DNA from: Actinomycetota bacterium
GTDB lineage: Bacteria; Actinomycetota; Acidimicrobiia; Acidimicrobiales; Aldehydirespiratoraceae
Direction: 5' to 3'
NCBI GenBank assembly: GCA_009937405.1
Contig: JAACCU010000031.1
Span: forward strand, 1-35,422
DNA length: 35,422 nucleotides
This document shows positions 7,672 to 28,288 of this stretch, piece after piece. How positions within the stretch are numbered: position 1 is the first letter of the stretch; every line of letters starts with the position of its first letter. The position numbers were made by a program, and so were the translations under genes. The notes under the pieces were generated by a model. The model was given only the letters and a program-made list of their open reading frames with translations. It was not told the origin of the DNA and made no database searches.

Positions 7672-9306
7672 TTACTTGCGCAGGGCCCGGTACCTGCGGA
7701 TCAGGGCATTGGTGCTGGCGTCGTGGTCCAGGGCTGGTTCGTCGGAGGCGACGAGTTCGGGGATGATGGCGGTGGCCAGTTCCTTGCCGAGCTCGACTCC
7801 CCATTGGTCGAACGAGTTGACGCCCCACACCACACCCTGGGTGAACACTTGGTGTTCGTAGAGCGCCACGAGTTGGCCGAGTACCGAAGGGGTGAGCGCT
7901 GGCGCCATGATCGTTGTCGATGGGCGATTGCCCGGGAACGTGCGGTGGTTGACGAGCGCCGGGTTGGTCTCGGTCGCGGCTACCTCATCAGCGGTCTTGC
8001 CGAACGCGAGTGCCTCGGACTGGGCGAGGCAGTTCGCCACCAGAAGATCGTGATGGGCTTCGACCCCAGCGAGTTGATCGTTGGTGTGGTCGGGGGCCGC
8101 CATCAGAATGAAGTCGGTGGGCACAACAGTGGTGCCCTGATGCAAGAGCTGATGGAACGAGTGCTGGCCGTTCGTCCCCGCTTGGCCCCAGATGATCGGC
8201 CCGGTCTCGTACGTGACGGGTTCGCCATCGAGCCGCACTTGCTTGCCGTTGCTCTACATGTCGAGCTGCTGGAGGTAGGCGGGGAATCGATGGAGGTAAC
8301 GCGAGTAGGGGAGGACGGCCCGAGTCGGTAGGTCACAGAACGTGCGGTACCAGACTTCGATGAGCCCAAGGAGGGCCGGAGCGTTTTGCGCGATCGGAGT
8401 CGAGACGAAATGGTCGTCGACGATTCGGAACCCGTCGAGCATTTCGCCGAAGGCCTCAGCCCCGATGGCAAGCATGAGTGACAGGCCGATGGCGGAGTCC
8501 ATCGAGTAGCGGCCGCCGACCCAATCCCAAAAGTTGAACATGTTGGCGGTGTCGATCCCGAAGGCGGCCACGGCGTCAGCGTTGGTGGACACCGCGACGA
8601 AGTGCTTGGCGACGGCGTCGTCGCCGAGCCGATCGGCCAGCCAGCGGCGAGCGGAAGTGGCGTTGGTGAGTGTCTCCTGCGTGGTGAACGTTTTTGACGA
8701 GATCACGAACATTGTGGTGGCCGGATCGAGATCGGAAACGGCCGCGGCGAGATCGCTGCCATCGACGGTGGACACGAACTCACAGCGGATGCGTGGGTGA
8801 CGAAATGCAGCGAGTGCTTCGTAGGCCATGACAGGGCCGAGGTCGGATCCCCCGATCCCGATGTTGACGACTGTCTTGATGGGCATACCGGTTGCACCAA
8901 GCCAGTCGCCGCTGCGTACCCGATCGGTGAATGCCGCCATCTGTGCAAGCACACGGTGCACCCCCGGCACGACGTCCTCACCATCGACCACGATCGTTCG
9001 GCCTGCGGGGGCGCGGAGCGCCGTGTGAAGGACGGCTCGGTCCTCCGTCGAATTGATGCGATCACCGCGCATCATTGCTGTCGCTCGATCAGCTACACGG
9101 GTCGTCTCGGCGAGCGCGATGAGGTCGGCCAATACCGCGGGGGTGATCCGATTCTTTGACCAGTCGATGATCAGATCACCGACTGACAGTGTCATGGCAT
9201 CGACGCGCTCCGGGTCACCGGCGAAGAGAGAGCGCAGTTCGAGGTCAGCGAAATGCTCGGCGTGGGTACGTAGCGCCCGCCATGCGTCAGTCATCGTGAT
9301 GTCCAC
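7672..9306 (-). pseudogene. pgi: Glucose-6-phosphate isomerase, full-length frame interrupted by one in-frame TAG
   Basis: ORFs 8254-9306 and 7672-8238 are in the same frame and together form a 545-codon Pgi. '[18 protein letters not shown]', '[13 protein letters not shown]' and '[21 protein letters not shown]' precede the stop. The stop sits in '[49 protein letters not shown]', at the position of Glu in the MESNGK motif. Confidence 0.92.
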
Positions 9307-10830: not shown

Positions 10831-11652
10831 TCAGCCGGCAGCCTGCTCAGCGTCTTCGCCACTCGCGCGGGCGATGTCGATGAGGTGCTGGACGTCTTCG
10901 GCCTGGAGGCCAGAGTCGAGGTCAGTGCCCTCTTCCTCCATCACACGGAGGAGTTCTTCGAGCAGGTGAAGCTCGGCCTCAGCGGCGGCATCATCGAGAC
11001 CGCCATGGGTGATCCGCTCGTAGTAGACGACGGCGACAAGTTCTTCTGCGGAAAGACCGCCACCGAAGCCGCTCATCTGCCCGAAGCTGCCTGGGGTGCG
11101 AGCGCCCCCAGCGCGAGCAGGATCGCCGTAGGTGGCGGTGCTGGTGCCGGCAGTGCCGTTGGCAACCCAGGCAATCTGGCCGGCGATGCCGTCGTAGGCC
11201 ATGCCGGCTTCAGCGCTCGGGAAGGTCAACAAGACCTGGCCGTCGTTGAGTTGGCGGCCGGTGCCGCCGCCGCCGGTGCCGCCGTGGCAGCTGGAGCATT
11301 GGCCGCTGTAGATCTCGCCACCTTCGACAAGCAATCCACCGGCCTCGGCCGGTGGATTTTCGAGATAGCCCACGTAGTAGATCGCCCAGATCGGCAAGAA
11401 CAACAGAACGGGAATAATCCACGCCGGGATGGTCTTGCGATTGAGGCCGGCCTCGACGTACGGGGCAACAGGCTCGGGAGCCTTGGGCTCCTCTGGGATG
11501 GCTGGTGGCGCGGCGGCAACGGGGGCAGCAACGGCGGGCGTAGCAGCCGGGGTGTTGCCGCCGGACGTATCGCTACCGCCGCCGCCTTCGCCAGTAAGGC
11601 GAGCGCGGGCTTCGGCCGCTCGTTTCAGCAGGTGCTCGGGAAGTTCGGTCAC
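10831..11652 (-). CDS. Membrane-anchored mono-haem cytochrome c
   Basis: TM 'TIPAWIIPVLLFLPIWAIYYVGYL', CXXCH 'CSSCHGGTGGGG' (codons at 11284-11298), cytochrome c-like C-terminal 'LSAEELVAVVYYERI'. N-terminus MTELPEHLLKRAAEARARL. Confidence 0.88.
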   Translation of the reverse strand: MTELPEHLLKRAAEARARLTGEGGGGSDTSGGNTPAATPAVAAPVAAAPPAIPEEPKAPEPVAPYVEAGLNRKTIPAWIIPVLLFLPIWAIYYVGYLENPPAEAGGLLVEGGEIYSGQCSSCHGGTGGGGTGRQLNDGQVLLTFPSAEAGMAYDGIAGQIAWVANGTAGTSTATYGDPARAGGARTPGSFGQMSGFGGGLSAEELVAVVYYERITHGGLDDAAAEAELHLLEELLRVMEEEGTDLDSGLQAEDVQHLIDIARASGEDAEQAAG

Positions 11653-11930: not shown

Positions 11931-12383
11931 GTGGTTGCTTTTGTTCTATCTTGGATCGTTGCCTTCTTGATCACGGGTGGCATCGTCGCGTATTCGAAGC
12001 GGCGTCCAGTCGACGTGCCCATGACATGGGGCGAAGCGATGCTGAGTTCACTTGTCGTGTTCTTTTTAATGTTCTGGAGCTACGGCGTCGTGCCTCACCA
12101 GTGGTTGGTGTGGGCTGACAACGAACTCAATTGGCGTGTCGACAAGTTTGTTGTTGGCCCAGGTGGGATCCTGAAGCACTCCCGTGATGGCGGCATCATG
12201 CCGATCGACATCACCTATGTCGTGCTTCGTGACGTGATCGCTCTGCTTATCTACGGCATCATCCTTGGCGCCAACATCGCGCTTTGGGCGATGTGGCAGA
12301 AGCGTGGCAAGGATGCTGTCACTGCTGCGCCTGAGCGTTCGGCCTTCGGCCGTCCGCTCATCAAGGAGGGCTCGTCGTCATGA
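11931..12383 (+). CDS. Uncharacterised small membrane protein at the head of the b6/Rieske operon
   Basis: GTG start with SD. About three hydrophobic segments ('FVLSWIVAFLITGGIVAY', 'LSSLVVFFLMFWSYGVV', 'VIALLIYGIILGANIALWAMW'). ATGA overlap with the next gene. Confidence 0.75.
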   Translation: MVAFVLSWIVAFLITGGIVAYSKRRPVDVPMTWGEAMLSSLVVFFLMFWSYGVVPHQWLVWADNELNWRVDKFVVGPGGILKHSRDGGIMPIDITYVVLRDVIALLIYGIILGANIALWAMWQKRGKDAVTAAPERSAFGRPLIKEGSSS

Positions 12384-12796
12384 GCAATGTCGATGCAAAC
12401 CCGCCGATGCCGGTTTTCCGGGATGATTACGTCCTTCAGGAAGTCGACGCGGCGTGGCTCAGTCAACAGGTCAAACCCAAACAATTCATTCACATCGACC
12501 AGTCCGAGTGCATTATGTGCGAAGGCTGCGTCGATATCTGCCCGTGGAAGTGCATCCATATGGTTCGCACGGATGCGATCGACGAAGCGATCGGCACCGA
12601 GCTTCCTGGCAGCGACCCCAACGATCATGTGATCTTTACGATCGACGACGATGTGTGCACTCGTTGCGCACTCTGCGTTGATCGATGCCCGACGGGCGTC
12701 ATAATCCTCGGTAAAATCGGCGATGCGCCGGCCGAGGGTGACTCCCATCAGCGCACCAATACCCACGGCTACGGATACGGAATGCGCCTCAGCTGA
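12380..12796 (+). CDS. 2x[4Fe-4S] ferredoxin-type protein
   Basis: Two cluster motifs, 'CIMCEGCVDICPWKC' and 'CTRCALCVDRCPTGV'. Confidence 0.93.
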   Translation: MSNVDANPPMPVFRDDYVLQEVDAAWLSQQVKPKQFIHIDQSECIMCEGCVDICPWKCIHMVRTDAIDEAIGTELPGSDPNDHVIFTIDDDVCTRCALCVDRCPTGVIILGKIGDAPAEGDSHQRTNTHGYGYGMRLS

Positions 12797-12802
12797 GGCG
12801 CA
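12783..12802. repeat. 20-bp perfect palindrome over the ferredoxin stop codon / cytochrome b leader
   Basis: TGCGCCTCAGCTGAGGCGCA read directly; adjoins AGGAG at 12802-12806. Confidence 0.85.
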
Positions 12803-12819
12803 GGAGAAAAAGACTTTAG

Positions 12820-13611
12820 ATGGCTATCGACGAAGATGTAAAAAAACCGTTCCCGCAACGGATGCAGGATTCGATGTCCCAAATGGGAGATCAGGTCCAG
12901 GGTTCGCAAGCGTGGAACTCAATTTTCCGACCGGGTTCGATTTTCCGGAAGGGTTACACAGACAGTCCGCGCAACCGGTCCTACGTGATCATGAACAGCG
13001 TGCTGTATCACCTTCACCCGGTGAAGGTGAAGCGCCACTCGGTAAAGGTCAGCTACACCCTGTGCCTGGGTGGCTTGTCGTTCCTCTTGTTCATTCACCT
13101 CACGATCACGGGCATCTTCTTGATGTTCGTCTACCGCCCGACGGCGGCAGCAGCCTGGGACGACATCTACACCCTGCAGAACACCGTCACTTTCGGCTTG
13201 TTGGTTCGCAACATGCACAGATGGGCGGCGCACCTCATGGTGCTGAGTGTGTTCCTGCACATGGCTCGCGTCTTTTATCACGGTGCCTACAAGCCGCCTC
13301 GGGAGTTCAACTGGGTGATCGGCGTGATGCTGCTTCAGTTCACGCTGTTGCTTTCGTTCACCGGCTATCTGCTCCCGTGGGATCAGCTGGCGCTCTGGGC
13401 TGTGACCGTGGGTACCAACATGATGGGGTATACCCCGGTGTTTGGTAACCAGGTTCGATTCGTCTTGCTTGGTGGTGTCGAAATCGGCACAGATACCCTG
13501 CTTCGTTGGTACGTGCTCCACGTGCTGCTGCTGCCATTCGTTGTTGTTATCTTTATGGCGATTCACTTTTGGAGAGTCCGCAAAGACGGCGGCATCTCGG
13601 GGCCGCTGTAG
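12820..13611 (+). CDS. Cytochrome b6-type N-terminal subunit of a Rieske/cytochrome b complex
   Basis: Four-helix b6-length protein with 'CLGGLSF', 'VYRPTAAAAW', 'HRWAAHLMVLSVFLH' (Hx13H), 'GYLLPWDQLALWAV', 'LHVLLLPFVVVIFMAIHF' (Hx14H) and C-terminal 'RKDGGISGPL'. Confidence 0.95.
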   Translation: MAIDEDVKKPFPQRMQDSMSQMGDQVQGSQAWNSIFRPGSIFRKGYTDSPRNRSYVIMNSVLYHLHPVKVKRHSVKVSYTLCLGGLSFLLFIHLTITGIFLMFVYRPTAAAAWDDIYTLQNTVTFGLLVRNMHRWAAHLMVLSVFLHMARVFYHGAYKPPREFNWVIGVMLLQFTLLLSFTGYLLPWDQLALWAVTVGTNMMGYTPVFGNQVRFVLLGGVEIGTDTLLRWYVLHVLLLPFVVVIFMAIHFWRVRKDGGISGPL

Positions 13612-13629
13612 GCCTAGGGAGAACAGACC

Positions 13630-14400
13630 ATGACTGAAATCCCCGAACATCTCCGCAAGAAGGCCGCTGAGGCTCGCGCTAAGGCCGACGCCGCAAAGGC
13701 TGAATCTGCGGCGTCCGCTGAGGAGACCGCACTCACTGCCGAACAGCAGGAAGCGGCATCAAAGATCCCCGCGCATTTGCTCGAACGCTCGAAGGCTGCC
13801 ACAGCCAAGTCGGGCGGCGGGGAAGCCGGCGGCGCTGTTGCCGCTGCTCCCGCGGCTGTCGCCGCGGCGGCGACTGGTGGCGCGCCGGTTATGACCGGGC
13901 CAGGGGGCAATACCCAGCGCTTGCTCACCGTTGTTAAATCGGGCTCGATCCAAGACACGAAGTCCACTCCGCAAGACAAGGTTCATACCTGGCCCCACCT
14001 TCTCGTGGCCGAGTTCGCAGCAGCGCTCTTCATCACGGCGTTCATTCTGATCTTCTCGATCTTCGTGAACGCTCCGCTGCTTGAGTTGGCCAACTTCAAC
14101 GAGACCCCCAATCCATCGAAGGCCCCCTGGTACTTCCTCGGCCTTCAAGAGCTTTTGACAATGTTTCATCCGATGGTTGCCGGTGTGACCATCCCGGGTA
14201 TCGGCCTCTTTGTGCTGATCCTGGCTCCGTACATCGACCGAAACCCCTCGACCAAACCTGAGGACCGAAAGTTCGCGATCTCACTCATGACGATTCACCT
14301 GATGTTTTGGGCAGTACTCGTCATGATCGGCTCGTTCTTCCGTGGCCCAGGCTTCAACTTCGTCTTCCCCTGGGAAGCCGGACTCTTCTTCGAGCTGTGA
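13630..14400 (+). CDS. Cytochrome b C-terminal domain (subunit IV-like) with long Ala/Lys/Glu-rich N-terminal extension
   Basis: 'VHTWPHLLVAEFAAALFITAFILIFSIFVNAPLLELANFNETPNPSKAPWYFLGLQELL', 'PGIGLFVLILAPYIDRNPS', 'SFFRGPGFNFVFPW'. Confidence 0.92.
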   Translation: MTEIPEHLRKKAAEARAKADAAKAESAASAEETALTAEQQEAASKIPAHLLERSKAATAKSGGGEAGGAVAAAPAAVAAAATGGAPVMTGPGGNTQRLLTVVKSGSIQDTKSTPQDKVHTWPHLLVAEFAAALFITAFILIFSIFVNAPLLELANFNETPNPSKAPWYFLGLQELLTMFHPMVAGVTIPGIGLFVLILAPYIDRNPSTKPEDRKFAISLMTIHLMFWAVLVMIGSFFRGPGFNFVFPWEAGLFFEL

Positions 14401-14416
14401 GCAAAGGAGACTGCCA

Positions 14417-15295
14417 ATGATCACCCTCGGAATTATCGCAATCGTCATACTGGCTGGAATCGCCGTTATTGCCACCATGCGCGGCCGTCAGGCCGACGAA
14501 GCGGTCGGCATCTTGTCCAGCGAGACAAAGAAGCGCGACACCGCAAGTTCGGCCCTCGGCTCAGAAGCGGAGCTTTCCGGTAAGCAAGTTGAGAAGGCTG
14601 CCGCGCTTGAGCGCAAGGCCTCGTCGCAGCAACTCGTGCTCGCCGCCAACTCTGCCCCTCCCGCCCCCTACGTGCCGCCGGATCCCGATGTCATTGGTGT
14701 TAGCCGACGTCAATTCTTCAATCGTTCACTCATCTTGATGATGCAGATTGGTCTCGGTGGCTTCGGCGCCGCATGTATTGCCTTCTTGTGGCCCGAGGTT
14801 GGTGGCGGGTTCGGCTCGGCTATCAAGGTCGGGCTTGTCAGCGATTTGCTCGCCGACATCCGTAGCAACAATGGGTTTCTCTACAAGGCCGAAGGCCGCA
14901 TGTGGCTAACCGAGTACCCCAACGGTGCGGTCGAGAAGGCTCGGGCCTCGTACTCGCCCCCCGAACTCGCTGGCATGGAGGCAGGTTTGACGCTGGGCCT
15001 CGATGGCGGGGTCCTTGCGCTCTACCAGAAGTGCCCTCATCTCGGTTGCCGTGTGCCCGAGTGTGGCACCTCGCAATGGTTCGAATGTCCGTGTCACGGC
15101 TCGCAATACAATCGGGGCGGTGAAAAACGCGGGGGTCCTGCCCCTCGAGGCATGGATCGTTTCGCGATGAGCATCGGAAGCGACGGTTCACTGACCGTCG
15201 ATACCGGCACCATCGTCCAAGGTCCCCCTATCGGCACCAACACGACTGGCCAGGAAGCCGAAGGCCCCAACTGCATCGGCCAGTCGAGCCACTAG
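14417..15295 (+). CDS. Rieske [2Fe-2S] iron-sulfur protein
   Basis: Rieske motifs 'CPHLGC' and 'CPCHGSQYN', then 'GGPAPRGMDRFAM'. ATG at 14417 with AAAGGAGA upstream; the listed 14342 start lies within the previous gene. Confidence 0.95.
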   Translation: MITLGIIAIVILAGIAVIATMRGRQADEAVGILSSETKKRDTASSALGSEAELSGKQVEKAAALERKASSQQLVLAANSAPPAPYVPPDPDVIGVSRRQFFNRSLILMMQIGLGGFGAACIAFLWPEVGGGFGSAIKVGLVSDLLADIRSNNGFLYKAEGRMWLTEYPNGAVEKARASYSPPELAGMEAGLTLGLDGGVLALYQKCPHLGCRVPECGTSQWFECPCHGSQYNRGGEKRGGPAPRGMDRFAMSIGSDGSLTVDTGTIVQGPPIGTNTTGQEAEGPNCIGQSSH

Positions 15296-15355
15296 TAATC
15301 TCCGTCCGTTCCTAAGCTGAATATTCAGACCAAAGATCCAGAGTTCTCCACGCGC

Positions 15356-16840
15356 ATGCTGCTTGCCGCTTCAACACAACGAACCATCGGCCTCGTCATC
15401 TTGGCGATCGTCTTTATTGGTGGTCTCGTCTACATCTACTTCAACATTCGATCTGCTCGTGATGAGATCGGGTCCGAAATCGAGTTGGCTGCCAACCGGC
15501 GGCCATACATGGACGATGATCAGCTCGAGACCAAGCGGCTTGATCTCGCCCTCGGCACCAGCCTCGTGCTGCTGACCATCACGGCTATCACCCTGCCCCT
15601 GTACTGGCTTGGGGAACCCGGACGCCACGAGGGCCGCGACATCGACACGGACCGCATCTCCACCAACCGTGGTGAAGAGATCTATGTCGAAGGTGCCCAG
15701 TGCGTCGCCTGTCACGGTTCGGAAGGTTCCGGCGGAGCCGTTTCCACAGCAATCACCACTGAAGATGGCGCCTTCCTCGCCCAGGTGAGCTGGAAGGCTC
15801 CCGCCCTAAACACCCTCCTCTCTCGTTTCACCGAGAATGAAGTGATTCACACCCTGAACGTTGGCCGCAATGGCGTCATGCCGGCCTGGGGTGGCGGTGG
15901 CGGTGGCCCCCTCACCGACCAGCAGCTCGAAGAGATCGTTTACTACATCCGGTCGATCCAGATCGATGAGGATCAGATCAACATCGAAGTAGCCGACGGC
16001 GTCCGTGACGGCGTCGAGACCAAACTCCGCGCCGAGAGCGGCGCCGACTGGGCCAACGAGTTACGCGCCGTGAACGAAGCCAAGGACGCAACTGCACGAG
16101 ACGTCACCCTGGCGAGCCGAGAGATCTTTGGATTCGACTGCACCGAACAAACAGATGATCCTCGCTGTGCCGCAGACAACGATGCCGCCCAGGCGCTCCT
16201 CGCGGCTGAGACCCAACATGCTGATGCGCTCAATTCGGCGGTTGCTTCATGGCTCTTCGATGTCGATGCTGTGCGCCAGAGGGCGATGGATGCCGCCTTG
16301 GCTGCCAACTCAGCGCTGGACGACGAAGGCAACGAGGAGGACTGGCGCTTCGCGACACTGGAGTTACTGTCCACGCCTGGCGAGATCGAAGGACAAGACC
16401 TGTACCTGGAGTACGGCGAGATCCTCTTCACTAATACGGCCGCCGCTGGCACCTACAGTTGCGCCCGATGCCACACCTATGGTTGGAGTTTCGATGCCAC
16501 GGGGCCTTACAGCCTCGAACTTAACGGCACCGATGACCCCATCCTTGAGGACTACACGCAGGGCGGCGGCTACTTCGGTCCCAACCTGCGTGGCGGCACG
16601 ACGCTCGAACAGTTCGAGTCCGCGGCCAGCCACGCCGACTTCATCGCCAAGGGTCAAACCATGGGAGCTACGTACGGTCGGGGCGGCTCTGGGGGCAACG
16701 GCCAGATGCCTGGCTTCGGCCCCAACACTGACTCTTCCCCCGTTGGCCCAACCATCGGCACCGGTGACGAGTTCTCGTACCCGGCTCTGCTCACTGATGA
16801 GCAGATTGACGCAATTGTGGCGTTCGAGAGGAACCTCTAA
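15356..16840 (+). CDS. Two-haem membrane-anchored cytochrome c with long inter-haem linker
   Basis: Two TM segments, CXXCH sites 'CVACH' (15701-15715) and 'CARCH' (16460-16474), cytochrome c ends 'LEEIVYYIRSIQ' and 'LTDEQIDAIVAFERNL'. Confidence 0.92.
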   Translation: MLLAASTQRTIGLVILAIVFIGGLVYIYFNIRSARDEIGSEIELAANRRPYMDDDQLETKRLDLALGTSLVLLTITAITLPLYWLGEPGRHEGRDIDTDRISTNRGEEIYVEGAQCVACHGSEGSGGAVSTAITTEDGAFLAQVSWKAPALNTLLSRFTENEVIHTLNVGRNGVMPAWGGGGGGPLTDQQLEEIVYYIRSIQIDEDQINIEVADGVRDGVETKLRAESGADWANELRAVNEAKDATARDVTLASREIFGFDCTEQTDDPRCAADNDAAQALLAAETQHADALNSAVASWLFDVDAVRQRAMDAALAANSALDDEGNEEDWRFATLELLSTPGEIEGQDLYLEYGEILFTNTAAAGTYSCARCHTYGWSFDATGPYSLELNGTDDPILEDYTQGGGYFGPNLRGGTTLEQFESAASHADFIAKGQTMGATYGRGGSGGNGQMPGFGPNTDSSPVGPTIGTGDEFSYPALLTDEQIDAIVAFERNL

Positions 16841-17958
16841 TGGAGATGCTCGACATCATCGCTGGTCTCGCCTGGGACCCTCAGATCCGCGGCTTCATGG
16901 CCGTCCTCACGGGCATTGTTGTGCTCATGGGATCGGTTTGGCTGATCATCAGCACCAACTCTGGCCCCCGCCTCGGCACCCTCCTGTCGTTCGCTGGCTT
17001 CTTCGGATGGATGGCGATCATGGCCTCGATCTGGTGGATCTACGGCATCGGCTACGCCGGTGATAACCCGGTTTGGGAACAGGTTGAGATCGTTGAGGGC
17101 ACCGACGATGAGGGTCATCTCACATTCGCCGCTCTCGACGCAACCGATGGTCTGCTTACCGAAAATCTGAGTGACGCCCACTCGGTGGTTATAGCTGCCG
17201 CCGACCAGTTGCTCGCCGAATACGGCAACAGCGCACTCACCATGTCGACCTCAGGCCTGTCGCTGGACGACGCTGAATATGTCGTCGAAGTCCAGACCGC
17301 ATGGGCTGAATACGGCATCGTCACCGTTGACTCGCTCACGCCAGACCAGACCGAAGGTCTCTCCGGCAGCGAGATCGCTGTTCTGGCCGCTGACGAACAA
17401 GCCAAGAACGAAGCGACCACACTCTCAGAGTTGGCTGCCACCGCGCCGAAGCTGATCAATCAGGACAGCAGCGAACTCGGCGGCTGGACATTGCTGTCCA
17501 CCGCTCAGTCCGGCGAGGCCCAGGCATCTGCGATTGCCATGGTGCTCCAATCGGGCGACTTCGACTTTCAGACGGCCGGCGACTTCAAGGTCCTCGATGC
17601 CTTCACCATTGGTGGCAAGCGCGGTCTGCCCGAGAACCCGACCCGCTGGGATCGAATCGAAACCCAGGTTCGCACGGCGCTCACCATCAAACATCCGACT
17701 CGTTACGGTGTCGTTCAGATTCAGCAGGTCACCGAAGAATCGGTCACAAACCTTCCGGGCACCGCTCCAAAGCGTCCTGAAGTTGACCCAGATGCTCCGA
17801 TCGTGTCGATCGTCATGATCCGCAACCTCGGCAACCTGCGTCTCGTGCCTGCCATGGTCACCATCGGTTCGCTCCTCATCTTCCTTGGCCTCTGCTACAT
17901 GCTTCACGAGCGCGACAAGCTTGTGATGGCACGGCGGGCCGAGTTCCAGGCGGGGTAG
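16840..17958 (+). CDS. Uncharacterised membrane protein of the b6/Rieske/c operon
   Basis: Start overlaps the cytochrome c stop (TAATG). Two N-terminal TM segments, a ~220-aa soluble region, one C-terminal TM ('LVPAMVTIGSLLIFLGLCYML'). Confidence 0.8.
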   Translation: MEMLDIIAGLAWDPQIRGFMAVLTGIVVLMGSVWLIISTNSGPRLGTLLSFAGFFGWMAIMASIWWIYGIGYAGDNPVWEQVEIVEGTDDEGHLTFAALDATDGLLTENLSDAHSVVIAAADQLLAEYGNSALTMSTSGLSLDDAEYVVEVQTAWAEYGIVTVDSLTPDQTEGLSGSEIAVLAADEQAKNEATTLSELAATAPKLINQDSSELGGWTLLSTAQSGEAQASAIAMVLQSGDFDFQTAGDFKVLDAFTIGGKRGLPENPTRWDRIETQVRTALTIKHPTRYGVVQIQQVTEESVTNLPGTAPKRPEVDPDAPIVSIVMIRNLGNLRLVPAMVTIGSLLIFLGLCYMLHERDKLVMARRAEFQAG

Positions 17959-17961
17959 CGC

Positions 17962-18438
17962 ATGCTGGGCCAGTACCTTCCCTTGCTGGCGCTCTTGGTG
18001 CTCGCCGCGCTATTTGCTGCAGGCAGCTTTGCCGCCTCAGGCCTGCTCGCTCCCCGTGACCCCTCGTTGGCCAAGCGTGCGGCCTACGAGTGCGGCATCA
18101 TCCCTAGCCGTGAGACCCCGGAACGCTTCCCGGTCCGGTTCTTCCTCGTGGCGATGATCTTCATCGTTTTCGATATTGAGATAATTTTCTTCTATCCCTA
18201 CGCCATCGCATACGGCGGCCTTGGTGTGTTCGGTCTCGTAGTGATCATGGTGTTCACCTTCGCCGTGTTCGAATCGTTCGTGTACCTCATCGGAAACGGT
18301 GCCCTCGAATGGGGTCCGCTGAAGCAGGTCGCTCGCCCGAGTGGTGCCGTGTCACCTGACCGCACCGCTGAAACAACGATCTGCCGAGTTGGCCTTGAGG
18401 ACCGCGGAATATCTGTCGACGACGGGCAAGCTGCCTGA
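17962..18438 (+). CDS. nuoA: NADH-quinone oxidoreductase subunit A
   Basis: '[57 protein letters not shown]'; first gene of a canonical nuo order. Confidence 0.95.
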
Positions 18439-19034
18439 TGGCACAGATTCCCCTTCTTGGTGACTCAAACTCGATCGCCGACTCCGGCCTTGAGGGCATG
18501 GATCACAACTTCCTCACCGGCAATATCGAAGACTTGGTCAAGTGGGCACGAGCCCGCAGCTGTTGGCCCGCCACCTTTGGTCTGGCCTGCTGCGCCATCG
18601 AAATGATGGCGAGTGGCGCTGCGCACTATGACCTCGCCCGCTATGGCATGGAGGTCTTCCGGGCCTCACCGCGCCAAGCCGACCTCATGATTGTCGCTGG
18701 CCGCGTCTCTCAGAAGATGGCTCCGGTTCTTCGACAGGTCTACGACCAGATGATGGAACCGAAGTGGGTTATCTCCATGGGCGTGTGCGCTTCTAGCGGT
18801 GGGATGTTCAACAACTACGCAATCGTGCAGGGTGTTGACCAGGTCGTTCCCGTCGATGTCTACGCCCCGGGCTGTCCGCCTGGCCCCGAAACGCTCATGC
18901 ATGCCATCTTCACGCTTCACGAGAAGATCCAGAGTGGCGAGCTCACCCAGCGCCGCGAAGCTTCTGGTGCCGGTGCCGGGATCACGATCGAGCAGCGCGA
19001 CGGGCAAACCGCCGGCCTCACAATCGGGGGCTGA
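18438..19034 (+). CDS. nuoB: NADH-quinone oxidoreductase subunit B
   Basis: '[52 protein letters not shown]', '[14 protein letters not shown]'. Confidence 0.97.
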
Positions 19035-19036
19035 AC

Positions 19037-19588
19037 ATGAGCGACGATACCGCAGCAGAGGCTGCCGACGATGTAGCTGAGGCTGCAGTCGAAGACCCCG
19101 GTCCAGAGCACCAAATTCGTTACACCGCCATCGTGGCTGAGTCCAAGGGTGACGTAATACTTCACCCCTCCGTTGAGACGTATCTCGGCACGATCCCCGC
19201 AGCCCACGCCGATGGCTTCGATCAACTGATCGACCTCACCGCAGTCGACTACCTGACCTACGCCGGCAAACGTGCCCTCCCTGAGGGCATCGAGGCCGGT
19301 CGCTTCGAGGTCGTCACTGCCTTGATTAATCATCAACGCCGCGAGCGAATCCGCATCCGCGTTCAGCTTGGTGGTGACGATCCCACGATTGCCACCGCGT
19401 TCGATCTTTACCCTGGAGCCGAATATCTCGAGCGTGAGGTGTATGACATGTTCGGCATCGTGTTCGCCGATCATCCCGACATGAGTCGAGTGCTCATGCC
19501 CGAGGACTGGGTCGGCTATCCGCTCCGCAAGGACTATGCGATTGGTTCGATCCCGGTCCAGTTCAAGGCAGCGAGCAACCAGCGATGA
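19037..19588 (+). CDS. nuoC: NADH-quinone oxidoreductase subunit C
   Basis: 'YLEREVYDMFGIVFADHPDMSRVLMPEDWVGYPLRKDYAIG'. Confidence 0.95.
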   Translation: MSDDTAAEAADDVAEAAVEDPGPEHQIRYTAIVAESKGDVILHPSVETYLGTIPAAHADGFDQLIDLTAVDYLTYAGKRALPEGIEAGRFEVVTALINHQRRERIRIRVQLGGDDPTIATAFDLYPGAEYLEREVYDMFGIVFADHPDMSRVLMPEDWVGYPLRKDYAIGSIPVQFKAASNQR

Positions 19589-20916
19589 CCATTACCGACC
19601 AGGAGAATGTCGACGGAGCCGAGACCACCGGTCTTAACCCCGGCATAGATGGCGCTGAGCGCGTGAAGCGTCGTGGCGACGACTCTGCGGTACTTCGTCT
19701 CAGCGAGGCTGAGTGCGCCGAGATTGGCAACGATCCCCACTCCAACGCCGACGACGAGCGTGTGCTGCTCAATATGGGTCCCTCTCACCCTTCGACTCAC
19801 GGCGTTCTTCGTCTGATGCTCGAAATGGAGGGCGAGACAATTCTTCGCTCCAAGCCTGTCGTTGGTTACCTGCACACGGGTATGGAGAAGCAGGCTGAGC
19901 AGCTCACATATCTACAGGGCTGCACCAACGTCACTCGCATGGACTACGCCTCGCCGCTCTTCACCGAGCTGGCGTTCAGTCTTGCCACCGAGAAACTTCT
20001 CGGCATCGAGGTTCCCGAACGGGCCACCTGGATCCGGATGCTCATGTGTGAGCTCAACCGGATGTCGTCGCATCTCCTGTTCATGGCCACCAACGGCATG
20101 GACCTCGGCGCCGTGTCGATGATGATCTACGGCTGGCGCGAACGCGAAGAGGTGCTGCGGTTCTTCGAGAAGGTGACTGGCCTTCGCATGAACCACAACT
20201 ACATCCGCCCGGGTGGAGTCGCCGCTGATATGCCCGACGGCTGGGAAGCCGACGTCGAGCACCTGCTCGAACTGATCCCGCCTCGCCTCGAGGAATACGA
20301 CATCCTCATGACCGGGCAACCGATCTGGCGTGAGCGTCTTCAGGGTGTAGGCGTTCTGAATGCCGACGAGGCTCTGGCTCTCTCGGTCACTGGCCCCATT
20401 CTTCGGTCAACGGGCTATGCCTGGGACCTCCGCCGCGATGAGCCGTACCTGGCATATCCCGAAGTCGACTTCGACGTCATCGTCGGCAGCTACGGCGACT
20501 GCTACGACCGCTACGCCATTCGCCTCAACGAGATCCGCGAGTCGATGCGCATCGTCGAACAGATTCTTGACAAGATGCCTGCCGGTGATTATCGGGTCCA
20601 AGACAAGAAGGTCACTCCGCCTCCGCGTGTGCGCATTGACCAGTCGATGGAAGCGCTGATTCATCACTTCAAGATCTTCACCGAGGGCTACAAGGTTCCC
20701 GAGGGCGAGGCCTACGCCTGTGTTGAGTCGCCGCGTGGTGAGCTTGGCGTCTACATGGTGAGTGACGGCACATCGACCCCATATCGCATGCATGTCCGGG
20801 GCCCAAGCTTCATCAATGTGCAGACCATGCCCCATCTCATGCAAAACGGGTTGATCGCCGATGGCGTCGCCATCATCTCGAGCGTCGACCCGATCATGGG
20901 TGAGGTTGATCGATGA
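19585..20916 (+). CDS. nuoD: NADH-quinone oxidoreductase subunit D
   Basis: 'LNMGPSHPSTHGVLRLMLEMEGE', 'YLHTGMEKQAEQLTYLQ', C-terminal 'ISSVDPIMGEVDR'. Confidence 0.97.
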   Translation: MTITDQENVDGAETTGLNPGIDGAERVKRRGDDSAVLRLSEAECAEIGNDPHSNADDERVLLNMGPSHPSTHGVLRLMLEMEGETILRSKPVVGYLHTGMEKQAEQLTYLQGCTNVTRMDYASPLFTELAFSLATEKLLGIEVPERATWIRMLMCELNRMSSHLLFMATNGMDLGAVSMMIYGWREREEVLRFFEKVTGLRMNHNYIRPGGVAADMPDGWEADVEHLLELIPPRLEEYDILMTGQPIWRERLQGVGVLNADEALALSVTGPILRSTGYAWDLRRDEPYLAYPEVDFDVIVGSYGDCYDRYAIRLNEIRESMRIVEQILDKMPAGDYRVQDKKVTPPPRVRIDQSMEALIHHFKIFTEGYKVPEGEAYACVESPRGELGVYMVSDGTSTPYRMHVRGPSFINVQTMPHLMQNGLIADGVAIISSVDPIMGEVDR

Positions 20917-21548
20917 CCGAGCACTTCACCACCGCCAACCTGGCGACCGCGTACGAAATCATTGGTCGCTACCCGAAGCCGAAATCGGCATTGATTCCGC
21001 TCCTGCATCTCGCTCAAGAACAGGACGGCTGGGTCACCGACGATGCCATGCGTCAGATCGCGCAACTCACTGCCACCACGCCGGCTGAGGTCAAGGGCAC
21101 AGGCACCTTCTACGAAATGTTCAAGTTCCATCCGGTCGGCAAATACATGGTCAACGTGTGCACCAACCTGTCGTGCCAGCTGCTCGGCGGTGAAGAACTG
21201 CTCGCCCATGCCGAGGAGAAGCTCGGCGTGAAGGCCGGCGGCACCACCGCTGATGGCATGTTCACTGTCGAAGACGTGGAGTGCATCGCAGCATGCACAG
21301 AGGCGCCGGCCCTGCAGGTCAACTACCGCTTCCGGCATCGCATCACCATCACCGAGTTCGATGAACTGATCGACGACATTCGCAGCGGCAAAGCCGATGA
21401 CATCCCTGAACATGGAACCCTCGCCCGGGTCCGTCAATCGATTCCAGCTGGTGCTGGTGCGGGGATCTACCCGCCAGAACAGGCCAATGAGGCCCCCGTT
21501 TGGCTTGCCCGCAACGATGAGGGCCGCGACGAAGGAGGGGAAGGCTGA
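20913..21548 (+). CDS. nuoE: NADH-quinone oxidoreductase subunit E
   Basis: 'GTFYEMFKFHPVGKYMVNVCTNLSCQLLGGEELL' and 'VEDVECIAACTEAPALQVN' [2Fe-2S] Cys pattern. Confidence 0.95.
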   Translation: MTEHFTTANLATAYEIIGRYPKPKSALIPLLHLAQEQDGWVTDDAMRQIAQLTATTPAEVKGTGTFYEMFKFHPVGKYMVNVCTNLSCQLLGGEELLAHAEEKLGVKAGGTTADGMFTVEDVECIAACTEAPALQVNYRFRHRITITEFDELIDDIRSGKADDIPEHGTLARVRQSIPAGAGAGIYPPEQANEAPVWLARNDEGRDEGGEG

Positions 21549-22951
21549 TGCCAACCCACGACTACATCGCTCACGCTGCCGGGTATGTCGACAATGACGG
21601 ACCCAAGATTGTCACCAGTCGATTCCCGTATGAGGATTCGTACACGCTCGAACGGTTCGAGGCCACGGGCGGCTACGACGGGCTGCGTACAGCGCTGAGT
21701 CGTCGCCCTAGCGACGTCCACAGCGAAGTTCGTGACGCCACGGTTCTCGGTCGTGGTGGCGCCGGCTTCCCCGCCGGCGTCAAGTGGGGCTTCATGCCCC
21801 CTGGCAAGTTCCCGTACTACCTCGTTGTCAACGGCGACGAAAGCGAACCTGGCACGTACAAGGATCGGCTCCTCATGGAGCGCGATCCCCACCAGCTGAT
21901 CGAGGGTTGCCTCATCACCTGCTACGCACTGGGTCTCGCCCAATGCTTCCTTTATGTCCGGGGCGAGATGGCGTTGGCTCAAGAACGCATCGCCACGGCC
22001 CTCAACGACGCATACGCCAAGGGTTACGTCGGCAAGAACATTCTCGGCACCGACTTCAGCGTCGACATCACCCTTACCTGGGGCGCCGGTGCCTACATCG
22101 TCGGTGAAGAGACGGCCCTCATCGAAAGCCTCGAAGGCAACCGCGGCATGCCGCGCCTGAAGCCGCCGTACTTCCCCGCGGCAATCGGCCTCTACGGTCA
22201 GCCAACGATCGTCAACAATGTCGAAACGCTGGCCAACCTTCCGTGGCTCATGCAGAACGGCGCTGACCAGTACAAGACGTACGGGTCCGAGTCGTCGCCA
22301 GGCACCCGCATGATTGCGGTGTCGGGTCATGTGAAACGTCCGGGCGTCTATGAGATCGAGCAAGGTGTCACTACATTTCGCGATCTGTTCTACGGCGACA
22401 ACTTCTGCCAAGGTATTCGCGAGGGCCACGAGCTCAAGATGTTCGTGCCCGGTGGAGGCTCTGCGCCATGGTTCTTCCCCGAGCAGGTCGACCTGCCGCT
22501 CGAGGCTCGTGCGGTCGGCGCCGCTGGTTCGATGCTCGGCTCCGGGGCCATCATCGTGATGGACGAGACAACCGACGCGGTGAAGGCCGCCCTTCGACTC
22601 GTGCGCTTCTACGCCCGCGAGTCGTGCGGCAAATGCACCCCCTGTCGTGAGGGAACGACCTGGGAAGAGCGGGTGATGCAACGCATTGTCGATGGTGAAG
22701 GTCGCCCCAGCGACATCGACATGCTGCTCGACATTGCCGACAACATCTCGCCTGGCCCGTACCCGGTTGCCGCCGATCCGTCGCAGGGTCTTGAAGCCGT
22801 GCCGTTCCCGCCGAAGCAGACCACCATCTGCCCGCTTGGCCCATCATCGGTCGCGCCGATTGCGTCGACGATTCGTCGGTTCCGCCACGAATACGAGGCA
22901 AAGATCACCAAGCGCGACACCATTCCTCTCACCGTTGAGGCGCTTTCATGA
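21548..22951 (+). CDS. nuoF: NADH-quinone oxidoreductase subunit F
   Basis: 'GRGGAGFPAGVKWGFMP', 'NGDESEPGTYKDRLLMERDPHQLIEG', 'GAGAYIVGEETALIESLEG', 'ESCGKCTPCREGT'. Confidence 0.97.
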   Translation: MPTHDYIAHAAGYVDNDGPKIVTSRFPYEDSYTLERFEATGGYDGLRTALSRRPSDVHSEVRDATVLGRGGAGFPAGVKWGFMPPGKFPYYLVVNGDESEPGTYKDRLLMERDPHQLIEGCLITCYALGLAQCFLYVRGEMALAQERIATALNDAYAKGYVGKNILGTDFSVDITLTWGAGAYIVGEETALIESLEGNRGMPRLKPPYFPAAIGLYGQPTIVNNVETLANLPWLMQNGADQYKTYGSESSPGTRMIAVSGHVKRPGVYEIEQGVTTFRDLFYGDNFCQGIREGHELKMFVPGGGSAPWFFPEQVDLPLEARAVGAAGSMLGSGAIIVMDETTDAVKAALRLVRFYARESCGKCTPCREGTTWEERVMQRIVDGEGRPSDIDMLLDIADNISPGPYPVAADPSQGLEAVPFPPKQTTICPLGPSSVAPIASTIRRFRHEYEAKITKRDTIPLTVEALS

Positions 22952-25428
22952 CCGACACCCACGCCGTTTCCACTGTCTCGGTCACTGTCAACGGCGAAGA
23001 GATTCAGGGCAACGTTGGGGAACTGCTCATTGACGCCTGCGAGCGCAACGGCACCTATATCCCACGCTTTTGTTATCACCCCCGTATGAGCCCGGTCGGC
23101 ATGTGCCGCATGTGTCTTGTTGAAGTCGATACGGGTCGGGGTCCGGCCCTTCAGCCGAGCTGCATGCTGGCGGTGACCGAAGGGATGAGCGTCGACACAG
23201 AGAGCGACCTCACCAAGAAGGCCCAGGACGGGGTCCTCGAGTTCCTTCTTGCCAACCACCCGCTTGATTGCCCGGTCTGCGACAAGGGCGGCGAATGCCC
23301 GCTTCAGGATCAGACCATGGCGTTCGGGCCCGGCGAGTCGCGCTTCATCGAAGAAAAGCGGCACTACGAGAAGCCGATCGCCATCAGCGACACCGTCTAC
23401 CTCGATCGTGAGCGCTGCATTCTGTGTGATCGTTGTACCCGTTTCGCTGACGAGGTCGCCGGTGACACGCTGATTCATTTCATGGACCGAGGGAACAACA
23501 CCCAGGTCAACACCTTCCCCAACGAGCCGTTCGCCTCGTACTTCTCGGGCAACACCGTGCAGATCTGTCCGGTCGGTGCGCTGACGGCGAAGCCCTACCG
23601 TTTCAAGGCCCGTCCCTGGGACCTTGAAGACAACCTTTCCACTGCGTGGACCGATTCCGTTGGATCGCGCATCACCGTGCAGTCGTCGCGAAACAAGGTC
23701 CTGCGTGTCCTTGGCGTCGACAGTGATTCGGTCAACTGGGGCTGGCTCTCGGACAAGGAACGTTTCGCGTTCGAAGCACTCAACAGCGAGGGTCGCATCA
23801 CTCAGCCAATGGCTCGCTCTGGTGCGAACAACGACCTGACCTCAACGGGTTGGGCGGTGGCGATGAAGACCATCGTCGATGTGTTCACCGACGTTGAACC
23901 CACTCGGGTTGGCGTGATCGGTGGCGCTCGCCTCACCAACGAATCTCAGTACGCCTGGGCCAAGCTCGCCAAGGGTGTCATCGGCACCGACAATGTCGAC
24001 GCTCAACTCGGCGACGGCCTTCCCGCTGAGCTCGTACTCGGCTTGCCTCGCGCCACCATCGCTGACGCCTGCCGCCCCGGTGGCACGATCATCCTTGTGG
24101 GCCCCGACCCAAAGGAAGATCTCGGCGCACTATTCCTGCGTCTCCGTCACGCAGTCGTCAACGACGGTGCCAGGCTGATTGAACTGACGCCGCACCGCAC
24201 CGGTCTTTCCGGAATTGCCGCCCACTCTGTTCATCCTCGTCCGGGTGAAGTCGGCGACCTTGCTGCGGCTCTCGTCGCAGCAAGCTCCGGGGTGGCAGCC
24301 GACACCGCCGGAGTTTCCGCTGATGCCATTGCCGCGGCCGCCGCATCCATCAGCGGGCCCGTCACAGTTGTGCTCGGGCGGGCTTCGCTCGCTGAGTCGG
24401 CGGCAGCTGCGGTCGTCGCCGCCACCGCCCTCAACGGACTCGCAAATGTCTCGTTCTTGTCTGCCTTGCGGCGTGGAAACGTGCACGGAGCGCTCGACGC
24501 GGGTCTTGCTCCTGGTTTGTTGCCCGGACGCACGACCCTTGCCGACGGTGGTGCCGCGTTCACACAAGCCTGGGGCTCAGTTCCCAGCGCTGTCGGCCTT
24601 GACACCGCAGGCATGCTTGCCGCCGCCGCCGCCGGTGACATTGACGTGCTCGTCCTTCTCGGCGCCGATCCGCTTAGCGATTTCCCTGACGCGGCAGCGG
24701 CCGAAGCCGGTCTCTTTGGTGCCGGCACCGTGATCGCCATCGACACATTGCCTAACGCCTCGCTTCTAGCCCACGCCGACCTGGTTCTGCCCGCCGCCGC
24801 GGCCACCGAGGTTGAGGGCACGTTCACCAACCTCGAAGGGCGAGTGAGTGTCTGCGAACAGAAGGTCACGCCGTGCGGTACCGCTCGGGCTGACTGGATG
24901 ATCGCCGCCCAGATCGCCTCTCGATTGGGTGCGGATCTTGGTATCGACTCACCGGCCGCGGCACGCGCCGAACTTGCTTCGCTGTCGTCGGCCCATGGTG
25001 ACCTGACCGAAGAGGCTCTTGCCGCGGCGGGCATCGAGGGTGTGTTGTGCGCCGGCAACGGTTCGATTATTGCTCCGGTTGCCAAGGACGTGGATGCCCC
25101 GACCAACGATGCCTACTCGCTTCGTCTCGTGGCTACCCGGCGCATGTATGACGCCGGGACCATGCTCGCTCACTCGCCTTCGAGTGCTGGCCTTGCCTCC
25201 TCAGTCGAGCTTCGCCTGAACCCAACTGACTTTGACAAGCTTGGTGTGGATTCTGGCAGCGTGGTGAAACTGATTTCCAGCAAAGGCGTGTTGATGACGC
25301 CGGTTGTCGCAGACCTGGGCGTGCCTGCGGGCTCGGCGGCCATTCCCGCCAACTCCCCGGATGCCAACGCCAACCGGCTGATCGACGGATCGCAGCCGGT
25401 CACCGATGTGCGGGTGGAACGCTCATGA
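22948..25428 (+). CDS. nuoG: NADH-quinone oxidoreductase subunit G
   Basis: 'CYHPRMSPVGMCRMCLVEV', 'HPLDCPVCDKGGECPLQDQ', 'CILCDRCTRFADEV' plus a molybdopterin-oxidoreductase-like C-terminal half. Confidence 0.95.
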   Translation: MTDTHAVSTVSVTVNGEEIQGNVGELLIDACERNGTYIPRFCYHPRMSPVGMCRMCLVEVDTGRGPALQPSCMLAVTEGMSVDTESDLTKKAQDGVLEFLLANHPLDCPVCDKGGECPLQDQTMAFGPGESRFIEEKRHYEKPIAISDTVYLDRERCILCDRCTRFADEVAGDTLIHFMDRGNNTQVNTFPNEPFASYFSGNTVQICPVGALTAKPYRFKARPWDLEDNLSTAWTDSVGSRITVQSSRNKVLRVLGVDSDSVNWGWLSDKERFAFEALNSEGRITQPMARSGANNDLTSTGWAVAMKTIVDVFTDVEPTRVGVIGGARLTNESQYAWAKLAKGVIGTDNVDAQLGDGLPAELVLGLPRATIADACRPGGTIILVGPDPKEDLGALFLRLRHAVVNDGARLIELTPHRTGLSGIAAHSVHPRPGEVGDLAAALVAASSGVAADTAGVSADAIAAAAASISGPVTVVLGRASLAESAAAAVVAATALNGLANVSFLSALRRGNVHGALDAGLAPGLLPGRTTLADGGAAFTQAWGSVPSAVGLDTAGMLAAAAAGDIDVLVLLGADPLSDFPDAAAAEAGLFGAGTVIAIDTLPNASLLAHADLVLPAAAATEVEGTFTNLEGRVSVCEQKVTPCGTARADWMIAAQIASRLGADLGIDSPAAARAELASLSSAHGDLTEEALAAAGIEGVLCAGNGSIIAPVAKDVDAPTNDAYSLRLVATRRMYDAGTMLAHSPSSAGLASSVELRLNPTDFDKLGVDSGSVVKLISSKGVLMTPVVADLGVPAGSAAIPANSPDANANRLIDGSQPVTDVRVERS

Positions 25429-26666
25429 TCCTCGGTCTCGATCCCCTCTACGTTGGCGACTTCATGGGTGACCTCCTGGTCACACTGCTGAAGGTCGGCG
25501 TGGCGTTCGTCTTCCTGCTCATCTCCGTGATGTTGATGGTCTGGTTCGAGCGCAAGCTCATATCCGACATGCAGAACCGCATCGGCCCGAGCATTGCTGG
25601 CCCCTGGGGCATCCTCCAGACTCTGGCTGACGGCATCAAGCTCTTCTTCAAGGAAGACCTGGTTCCCGACAACGCCGATCGCTTCGCTTTCAAGCTCGCC
25701 CCGTACCTCTCGTTGGTGCCGGCGTTTCTCGTCTTCGCCGTTGTCCCACTCGGCGGCGACTTCAACGGCGACGACGGTGACGGTGTAATCACCCTGTTCG
25801 GCCACGACACCTTCATGCAGGTTGCGGATCCGCCGATGGGCATCTTGTTCTTCCTGGCCATGTCATCGATCGCCATCTATGGCGTGATGCTCGCTGGTTG
25901 GGGTTCGGGATCGAAATACCCGCTGCTTGGGTCTGTCCGTGCTTCGGCGCAGATGATCTCCTACGAAGCTGCGCTGGGCCTCGCTATTGCTGCCGTCGTG
26001 TTGCAGACCGGTTCGCTCAGCACGCATGACATGGTGATTGATCAGGCCGCACCGGGCTTTTCGTTTGGTTCGTTCGGCATTCCGAACTGGAACATCATCG
26101 TGACCGGCATCGTCCCGTTCGTCGTGTTCCTCATCGCCGGCACTGCAGAGCTCAACCGGCCGCCATTTGACCTTGTCGAAGCGGAGCAGGAGCTGGTTGG
26201 CGGTTTCCACACCGAATATTCGTCGATTCGCTTCGCCCTGTTCTTCTTGGCCGAGTTCATGAACACGATCACCATGTCGGCAGTGATTGTGACCCTGTTC
26301 CTGGGTGGCCCCGCCGGTCCGGCGCTCTTCCTCCCTGAAGGCTGGTGGATTGGCACGATCTGGTTCTTCCTGAAGCTCTTCATCTTCTTGTTCATGTTTG
26401 TATGGTTCCGAGCCACGCTTCCCCGTTTCCGCTATGACCAGCTCATGGATCTGGGCTGGAAGCTCCTCATACCGCTGTCGCTCGCTTGGTTCATCATGTT
26501 GGCGGTCCTTCGAGTGGCCGACTCTGAGAACTGGAGCGCCGTCAAGACGTACGCTGTCGTGCTTGGCTTCATGGCCTCTTGTGGCTTGATGGCGACCCTG
26601 CTTATGGCCGCTATCAATACGGCTCGGTCCGAGCGAATCAAGGCGATGGAGGATGCCAATGGCTGA
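25425..26666 (+). CDS. nuoH: NADH-quinone oxidoreductase subunit H
   Basis: 'WFERKLISDMQNRIGPSIAGPWGILQTLADGIKLFFKEDLVP', 'ELNRPPFDLVEAEQELVGGFHTEYSSIRFALFFLAEF'. Confidence 0.97.
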   Translation: MILGLDPLYVGDFMGDLLVTLLKVGVAFVFLLISVMLMVWFERKLISDMQNRIGPSIAGPWGILQTLADGIKLFFKEDLVPDNADRFAFKLAPYLSLVPAFLVFAVVPLGGDFNGDDGDGVITLFGHDTFMQVADPPMGILFFLAMSSIAIYGVMLAGWGSGSKYPLLGSVRASAQMISYEAALGLAIAAVVLQTGSLSTHDMVIDQAAPGFSFGSFGIPNWNIIVTGIVPFVVFLIAGTAELNRPPFDLVEAEQELVGGFHTEYSSIRFALFFLAEFMNTITMSAVIVTLFLGGPAGPALFLPEGWWIGTIWFFLKLFIFLFMFVWFRATLPRFRYDQLMDLGWKLLIPLSLAWFIMLAVLRVADSENWSAVKTYAVVLGFMASCGLMATLLMAAINTARSERIKAMEDANG

Positions 26667-27974: not shown

Positions 27975-28279
27975 TGGAACTCACCACCACCTGGTATCTC
28001 TTGCTGTCGGCAATGGTTTTCTCGATCGGGGCGACTGGTCTGTTGGTCCGCCGGAACCCACTGGTGATGTTCATCTGCGTGGAGCTGATGCTCAATGCCG
28101 TGAACATTTCGTTCGTGGCGTTTGGTGCGGAACTGAATGATGTCGGCGGTCAGATCGCTGTGTTCTTTGTCCTGGTGGTCGCTGCGGTAGAGGTCGTTGT
28201 CGGCCTTGCCTTGGTTGTAGCCATCACTCGTCGTCGAGCGGATGCCACCGTCGATGACCTGTCGGTGTTGAGGGGGTAG
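27974..28279 (+). CDS. nuoK: NADH-quinone oxidoreductase subunit K
   Basis: 'FSIGATGLLVRRNPLVMFICVELMLNAVNISFVAFG', 'FFVLVVAAVEVVVGLALVVAITRRR'. Confidence 0.97.
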   Translation: MELTTTWYLLLSAMVFSIGATGLLVRRNPLVMFICVELMLNAVNISFVAFGAELNDVGGQIAVFFVLVVAAVEVVVGLALVVAITRRRADATVDDLSVLRG

Positions 28280-28288
28280 GCGTCGCTC

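Follow-up and report, generated by a model that had tools for sequence, protein, structure and literature searches.

Gene content of the module and type of the complex

The window analysed here is a stretch of 35,422 nucleotides (contig JAACCU010000031.1, assembly GCA_009937405.1) from a member of the Acidimicrobiales in the Actinomycetota. The contig belongs to a 3.4-Mb metagenome assembly that is 92% complete and 5% contaminated. Seven consecutive, co-directional genes spanning 11931-17958 encode, in order, a small membrane protein (M150), a 2[4Fe-4S] ferredoxin, cytochrome b6, subunit IV, a Rieske protein, a two-haem cytochrome c and a second membrane protein (TM3), and are followed downstream by nuoA-N. 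This module is the standard complex III of the Acidimicrobiia and relatives, and the place of the ferredoxin in it is the subject of this report. All open reading frames (ORFs) lie where an earlier note on this DNA, made from the sequence alone, had placed them, with overlaps of 1-4 bp; the M150 and ferredoxin genes overlap by 4 bp (ATGA) and the cytochrome c and TM3 genes by 1 bp. The domain calls of that note for the ferredoxin, b6, subunit IV, Rieske protein and cytochrome c agree with the Pfam and NCBIfam matches, which are Fer4 dicluster, Cytochrome_B, Cytochrom_B_C, Rieske and Cytochrom_C.

Cytochrome b is split between separate genes for b6 (12820-13611, +) and subunit IV (13630-14400, +). 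The best PDB matches of b6 are to cyanobacterial and chloroplast cytochrome b6 (E ~1e-46), and four transmembrane (TM) helices are expected from homology. The four His ligands of the b haems are each present in 164 of 164 loci of the main family. Cys82 (13063-13065) aligns with the CLGG Cys of 2zt9 and is the equivalent of b6f Cys35, the covalent site of haem ci (cn); this Cys is likewise found in 164/164 loci. Judged from its sequence, b6 is therefore of the haem-ci type (b6f/b6c-like) rather than a fused QcrB. Residues 36-77 (12925-13050, +) form a basic N-terminal extension with a net charge of +8, predicted to be cytoplasmic, which lies outside the match to plant and cyanobacterial b6. Its mean net charge is +7.3 over the 164 loci, and it is common to the ferredoxin-type complexes and the NAD(P)-type complexes described below but absent from the arm-less b6 of the phylum (L235-L237). 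Within it, His64 (13009-13011) is invariant in both types and is a candidate ligand of an interface haem, after the haem modelled in anammox complexes. The spacing from His64 to the C-terminal Arg-Lys is 190, against 204 from the residue numbers in the anammox paper, so its equivalence to the proposed anammox His is unproven.

Subunit IV has an N-terminal extension of about 110 residues and a Qo motif, APWY, at 14122-14133. Glu128 (14011-14013) is a candidate axial ligand of haem ci; a Glu in the first helix is found in all 151 ferredoxin-type loci, and in menaquinone b6c complexes a Glu is the second ligand of the low-potential haem cn (PMC12954380). The N-terminal motif MTE(I/L)PEHL..(K/R)AAEARA is common to subunit IV, which has a second copy (IPAHLLERS), and to upC (10831-11652, -), a divergent one-haem membrane cytochrome c that is a recurrent neighbour in the Acidimicrobiales and probably an electron carrier. 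The motif is possibly an interaction or sorting tag.

The genes of the Rieske protein and of a membrane c-type cytochrome lie in the same operon as b6. The Rieske gene (14417-15295, +; the ATG is at 14417, the mechanical ORF runs from 14342) encodes CPHLGC at 15032-15049 and CPCHGSQY at 15086-15109, and the residues forming the hydrogen bonds of high-potential Rieske clusters are conserved, Ser in 145/145 and Tyr in 143/145 loci. The membrane-anchored cytochrome c (15356-16840, +) has CXXCH motifs at 15701-15715 and 16460-16474 (residues 116 and 369). The count is also two in nearly all the other main-family loci scanned, with one motif in L061. The ferredoxin (12380-12796, +) has 138 amino acids, a net charge of -12 and Cys motifs at 12509-12553 and 12656-12691. 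Its eight cluster Cys are conserved in 159-160 of 160 orthologs.

M150 (11931-12383, +, GTG start) has three predicted TM helices (residues 2-24, 33-64 and 96-123), and its AlphaFold2 model likewise consists of three helices. TM3 (16840-17958, +) is a three-helix protein in which two N-terminal and one C-terminal TM helix flank an inserted alpha/beta domain; another family of the class has a short form of 120 amino acids in which this domain is missing. The earlier note had considered that the two proteins might belong to unrelated known families. Neither matches any Pfam or NCBIfam model, profile searches of the PDB gave no credible match, and Foldseek searches with both AlphaFold2 models (pLDDT 85 for M150 and 87 for TM3) gave nothing below E = 0.4. 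Four weak PDB matches of M150 were discarded, as they fall on a 14-residue stretch of an unrelated ETV6 construct.

A single PF00033 protein, the b6 of the module, was found in the 92% complete assembly, so that neither a second cytochrome b nor the fused qcrCAB that the earlier note had allowed for was found elsewhere in the genome. The module is apparently the organism's only complex III. Genes for a COX1-family oxidase and for a 2-oxoacid:ferredoxin oxidoreductase (POR_N) are present. The genome has menD and lacks mqnA, which indicates synthesis of menaquinone by the classical route. Together with the MK-9(H8) reported for a cultured strain of the Acidimicrobiia (PMC11697166), this points to menaquinol as the substrate.

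Distribution of the module and loss of the ferredoxin

The gene order is not confined to this genome, as the earlier note had thought it might be, but recurs across the Acidimicrobiia and in other classes of the phylum. Matches to M150 were found in 34 of 297 genomes of the phylum, and M150 adjoins a b6 gene cluster in the window and in all 33 match regions fetched. The best 80 loci of a b6 profile scan of named genomes, among them the complete genome of Aquihabitans sp. G128, are by title nearly all from Acidimicrobiia or Actinomycetota, the others being two Acidobacteria and one 'bacterium'. M150 and the ferredoxin are both present at every one of these 80 loci that has more than 1.5 kb upstream of b6, and the arrangement is thus more than chance. 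Many further genomes, from other classes of the phylum, have a close b6 (at least 65% identity). The 50 loci fetched next (L178-L227) keep the order M150, ferredoxin, b6, subunit IV, Rieske, cytochrome c and TM3 wherever the contig reaches, apart from three that are without the ferredoxin and with a few downstream genes incompletely detected.

At 160 of the 164 main-family loci the ferredoxin gene lies in one cluster with b6. The four loci without it (L053, L214, L216 and L217) belong to one family and keep the other module genes, and a genome-wide search of the four genomes (G173, G152, G119 and G130) did not find an ortholog of the ferredoxin. Since the rest of the module persists, the ferredoxin looks like an accessory arm that the core reaction can do without. 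None of the four genomes has lost M150, and three retain the C-terminal GG(Y) motif of this protein. M150 is therefore more than a helper in the ferredoxin-linked arm that the earlier note had suggested, and a pure ferredoxin anchor is rejected; M150 appears to be a general subunit of the complex.

The nuo genes adjoin the module in most of the class, and in the window nuoA starts 3 bp past the TM3 stop codon. In several loci from other classes nuo was not found adjacent, and there the ferredoxin stays with b6, which argues that it belongs with b6 and not with complex I. A ferredoxin that is a component of complex I is rejected, because the gene tracks b6 rather than nuo.

Paralogous NAD(P)-type complexes and known systems

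A second b6 complex, with a b6 50-56% identical to that of the module, occurs in seven sampled genomes (L228-L234; e.g. G161, G010, G058, G043 and G092). In six of the seven loci a FAD-NAD(P) protein of about 600-650 amino acids with a C-terminal dicluster domain is encoded directly upstream of b6; in the seventh, L230, the contig ends inside that domain. Pfam analysis, run on two of these flavoproteins, gave Fer4_20, Pyr_redox_2 and a C-terminal Fer4 dicluster, and the proteins are GltD/NfnB-like. Against the profile of the module ferredoxin the C-terminal domain scores 48-67 bits, NuoI 40 and the other ferredoxin-like proteins of the window genome less than 17. A small two-helix membrane ORF precedes the flavoprotein gene in all six readable loci and has a weak, consistent similarity to M150 (E 1.6e-8 to 2e-3); the core of the last two TM helices of M150 is also found in the NAD(P)-type complexes. 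In a tree of the ferredoxin domains the stand-alone ferredoxins and those of NAD(P) type form separate groups (92/99, short of what the tree program counts as a firm fork), and with few columns and long outgroup branches the deeper forks are unreliable.

The paralogous complexes differ from the module in that the haem-ci Cys is absent (0/7, with Arg or Tyr in 7/7) and the Glu of subunit IV is replaced by His (7/7). The joint replacement of Cys and Glu is what is expected if Glu128 ligates haem ci. The L228-L234 complexes resemble the anammox NAD(P) type, yet are without haem cn.

In Kuenenia, complexes of this kind (Kuste4569-4574 and Kustd1480-1485) have on their cytoplasmic side a FAD-NAD(P) oxidoreductase that contains several [4Fe-4S] clusters, and the formation of NAD(P)H by quinol bifurcation has been proposed (PMC12954380). 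By their published description they are like the window complex in having split b6 and subunit IV, haem cn with a Glu ligand, raised-potential Rieske residues, menaquinone and a cytoplasmic Fe-S arm. In the paralogs of the phylum itself, the gene immediately preceding b6 encodes a FAD-NAD(P) subunit that carries Fe-S domains and is similar to the anammox one. In the window, however, the NAD(P) oxidoreductase (found only in the L228-L234 paralogs) is replaced by a stand-alone ferredoxin, and the multihaem cytochrome c (6-8 haems) by a protein with two CXXCH; on these two grounds an identity with the NAD(P)-type complex is rejected. Unlike anammox bacteria, the organism of the window also has genes for O2 reductases and this complex as its sole complex III.

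Because of the position and homology of the domain in the paralogs and the match to the described anammox architecture, the ferredoxin is read as a cytoplasmic Fe-S arm. On the comparison of sequences it is homologous to, and in the position of, a known kind of cytoplasmic arm of Rieske/cytochrome b complexes. The parallel with cyclic electron flow drawn in the earlier note is strengthened, since the ferredoxin and the haem-ci Cys lie towards one side of the membrane and the paralog has the same ferredoxin domain fused to an NAD(P) oxidoreductase.

The b6c complexes of Firmicutes and heliobacteria have a split cytochrome b, haem ci and menaquinone, as does the window complex; we know of no operon ferredoxin, M150, TM3 or long basic b6 extension in them. 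The likeness to the cyanobacterial and chloroplast b6f complex, for which a ferredoxin:plastoquinone reductase function has been proposed (PMC13287000), lies in the ci Cys on b6, in subunit IV and in the Rieske protein. The window differs from b6f by the extra basic N-terminus of b6, a 2[4Fe-4S] instead of a plant-type [2Fe-2S] ferredoxin and menaquinone, and no cytochrome f or small Pet subunits were found in the operon. The canonical actinobacterial QcrCAB (bcc) complex carries out the same overall reaction, with a two-haem cytochrome c toward the oxidase, but has a fused QcrB, no haem ci and no ferredoxin. The window proteins score far under the QcrA/B/C models (111 bits with a cut-off of 500 for QcrB, 13 bits with a cut-off of 200 for QcrC), and with the split cytochrome b genes this rejects a canonical QcrCAB. 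Among the proteins of Geobacter-type Ext operons, ExtP has an NCBIfam cut-off that the window b6 passes (302 against 290 bits). Subunit IV misses the ExtQ cut-off (51 against 150 bits) and there is no multihaem cytochrome operon, so an ExtP/ExtQ identity is also rejected. The NCBIfam name ExtP (selenite/tellurite reduction) is misleading for the b6 of a respiratory complex III.

The earlier note had proposed a variant quinol:cytochrome c oxidoreductase with a ferredoxin. The complex is indeed unusual and its operon does encode a ferredoxin; it is not limited to one operon, however, but standard in the Acidimicrobiia and relatives, and of the complexes described before it comes closest to those of the haem-ci b6c and anammox NAD(P) types. 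Haem-ci complexes and the NAD(P)-linked arm of anammox bacteria are already known. In the literature covered, mostly outside subscription journals, no account was found of actinobacterial bc operons that include a ferredoxin, an absence that is weak evidence; nor were the class-wide stand-alone 2[4Fe-4S] ferredoxin of the operon, its relation to the NAD(P) arm or the two accessory membrane proteins found described.

Possible role of the ferredoxin

The gene content and order, the conservation, the cofactor residues and the homology of the arm to the Fe-S domain of the paralogous NAD(P) oxidoreductase are observed, and from them we infer a physical association, an electron path and a direction. 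The module may be a haem-ci menaquinol:cytochrome c oxidoreductase with the ferredoxin as a dedicated cytoplasmic arm that exchanges electrons with haem ci, the input direction being favoured; the chances for and against this are about even. A complex III of b6c type would oxidize menaquinol, and the two-haem cytochrome c would hand electrons toward the haem-copper oxidase. The ferredoxin would dock on the basic N-terminal extension of b6, for which the opposite charges (-12 and +8) are circumstantial evidence, and would exchange electrons with haem ci at the quinone-reducing (Qi) site. In the favoured direction electrons would pass from reduced ferredoxin, for example from the 2-oxoacid:ferredoxin oxidoreductase, via haem ci to menaquinone. 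In effect the Q-cycle enzyme would incorporate a ferredoxin:menaquinone reductase, with M150 and TM3 as accessory membrane subunits of the complex. Input is favoured over output because the ci Cys and the Glu, and hence presumably a working Qi site, are intact here and replaced in the NAD(P)-type paralogs, because the reaction is downhill, and because a 2-oxoacid:ferredoxin oxidoreductase gene is present in the genome.

Several points weigh against an arm that feeds electrons into the complex. Four genomes, all of one family, have lost the ferredoxin but retain the other module genes, the conserved gene order alone could stem from co-regulation or assembly, and oxidation of ferredoxin via menaquinone wastes about 300 mV relative to the formation of NAD(P)H. 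A joint loss of the ferredoxin and the 2-oxoacid:ferredoxin oxidoreductase was looked for and not seen, POR_N being present with or without the ferredoxin.

The reverse direction is unlikely but has to be taken seriously. Here the electrons of menaquinol would bifurcate, one passing to the Rieske protein, cytochrome c and O2 and the other via haems b and ci to the ferredoxin, which would give an aerobic cell low-potential ferredoxin, e.g. for the reversed oxidative tricarboxylic acid (roTCA) cycle. The anammox complexes with their NAD(P) oxidoreductase on the cytoplasmic side, proposed to reduce NAD(P) (PMC12954380), and the similar paralogs in the phylum are in line with output. So are the potential-raising Ser and Tyr of the Rieske protein, which are unusual for menaquinone; in anammox bacteria this mismatch has been used to argue for very low potentials of the b haems (PMC12954380). 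POR/OGOR, the ferredoxin-dependent enzymes by which Acidimicrobiia reportedly fix CO2 under aerobic conditions, are moreover near-universal in the class, one strain with MK-9(H8) is reported to run the roTCA cycle aerobically on sulfide, and CO2 fixation by this route requires reduced ferredoxin (PMC11697166). An intact haem-ci Cys and candidate Glu, on the other hand, mean that low-potential electrons should be drawn off into menaquinone at the Qi site; the potential of ferredoxin is lower than that of NAD(P), electrons bound for the cytoplasmic side have to move against the membrane potential, and a sole complex III must run an ordinary Q cycle too. In its specific form, in which O2-driven oxidation of menaquinol is coupled to reduction of the complex's own ferredoxin by quinol-based bifurcation and feeds low-potential electrons to aerobic metabolism (e.g. 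to POR/OGOR in the roTCA cycle), the proposal is somewhat less likely still.

The ferredoxin may also be a structural, assembly or redox-sensing subunit (e.g. in gating of the Qi site or maturation of haem ci) with no net electron traffic. The strict linkage to b6, and the one lineage that has dispensed with the ferredoxin but not with the other genes, would fit such a subunit, which we consider distinctly unlikely since the conservation of all eight cluster Cys and the place of the homologous paralog domain on a FAD/NAD(P) electron path both point to electron transfer. An ordinary cytoplasmic carrier that serves complex I, 2-oxoacid oxidoreductases or the neighbouring P450 and merely shares the operon is improbable, for although the ferredoxin gene lies beside nuoA-N and near a P450 gene in a genome with a 2-oxoacid:ferredoxin oxidoreductase, it tracks b6 and not nuo across the phylum, in the paralogs the neighbour gene of b6 encodes its homolog as part of a fusion protein, and complex I has its NADH module (NuoE/F/G).

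Of the other genes in the window, nuoA-N (17962-33911, +) encode complex I including NuoE/F/G. NuoL (28289-30583, +) has a long, charged, Ala/Glu/Lys-rich insert at about residues 440-560 that is unexpected for this protein. The P450 gene mentioned above lies near the module, and the gene for glucose-6-phosphate isomerase (7672-9306, -) has an in-frame TAG near 8254 (LDM*SNGK), either a nonsense mutation, readthrough or an assembly error.

The input of ferredoxin electrons to b6-type complexes at haem ci is unsettled in photosynthesis, where several ferredoxin- or NADPH-linked routes run at once. The Acidimicrobiia are a non-photosynthetic class with cultured members in which a haem-ci complex is combined with a dedicated operon ferredoxin and natural loss lineages exist, and the question of ferredoxin and haem ci thereby becomes directly testable. 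Its link to the complexes of NAD(P) type suggests that Rieske/cytochrome b enzymes form a family whose cytoplasmic Fe-S arms can be exchanged for one another; what has been described in anammox bacteria would then apply also to a phylum that is widespread and includes aerobes. The module is carried by a large group of soil and water actinobacteria, and it offers a candidate answer to how the Acidimicrobiia balance ferredoxin in an aerobic 2-oxoacid:ferredoxin metabolism.

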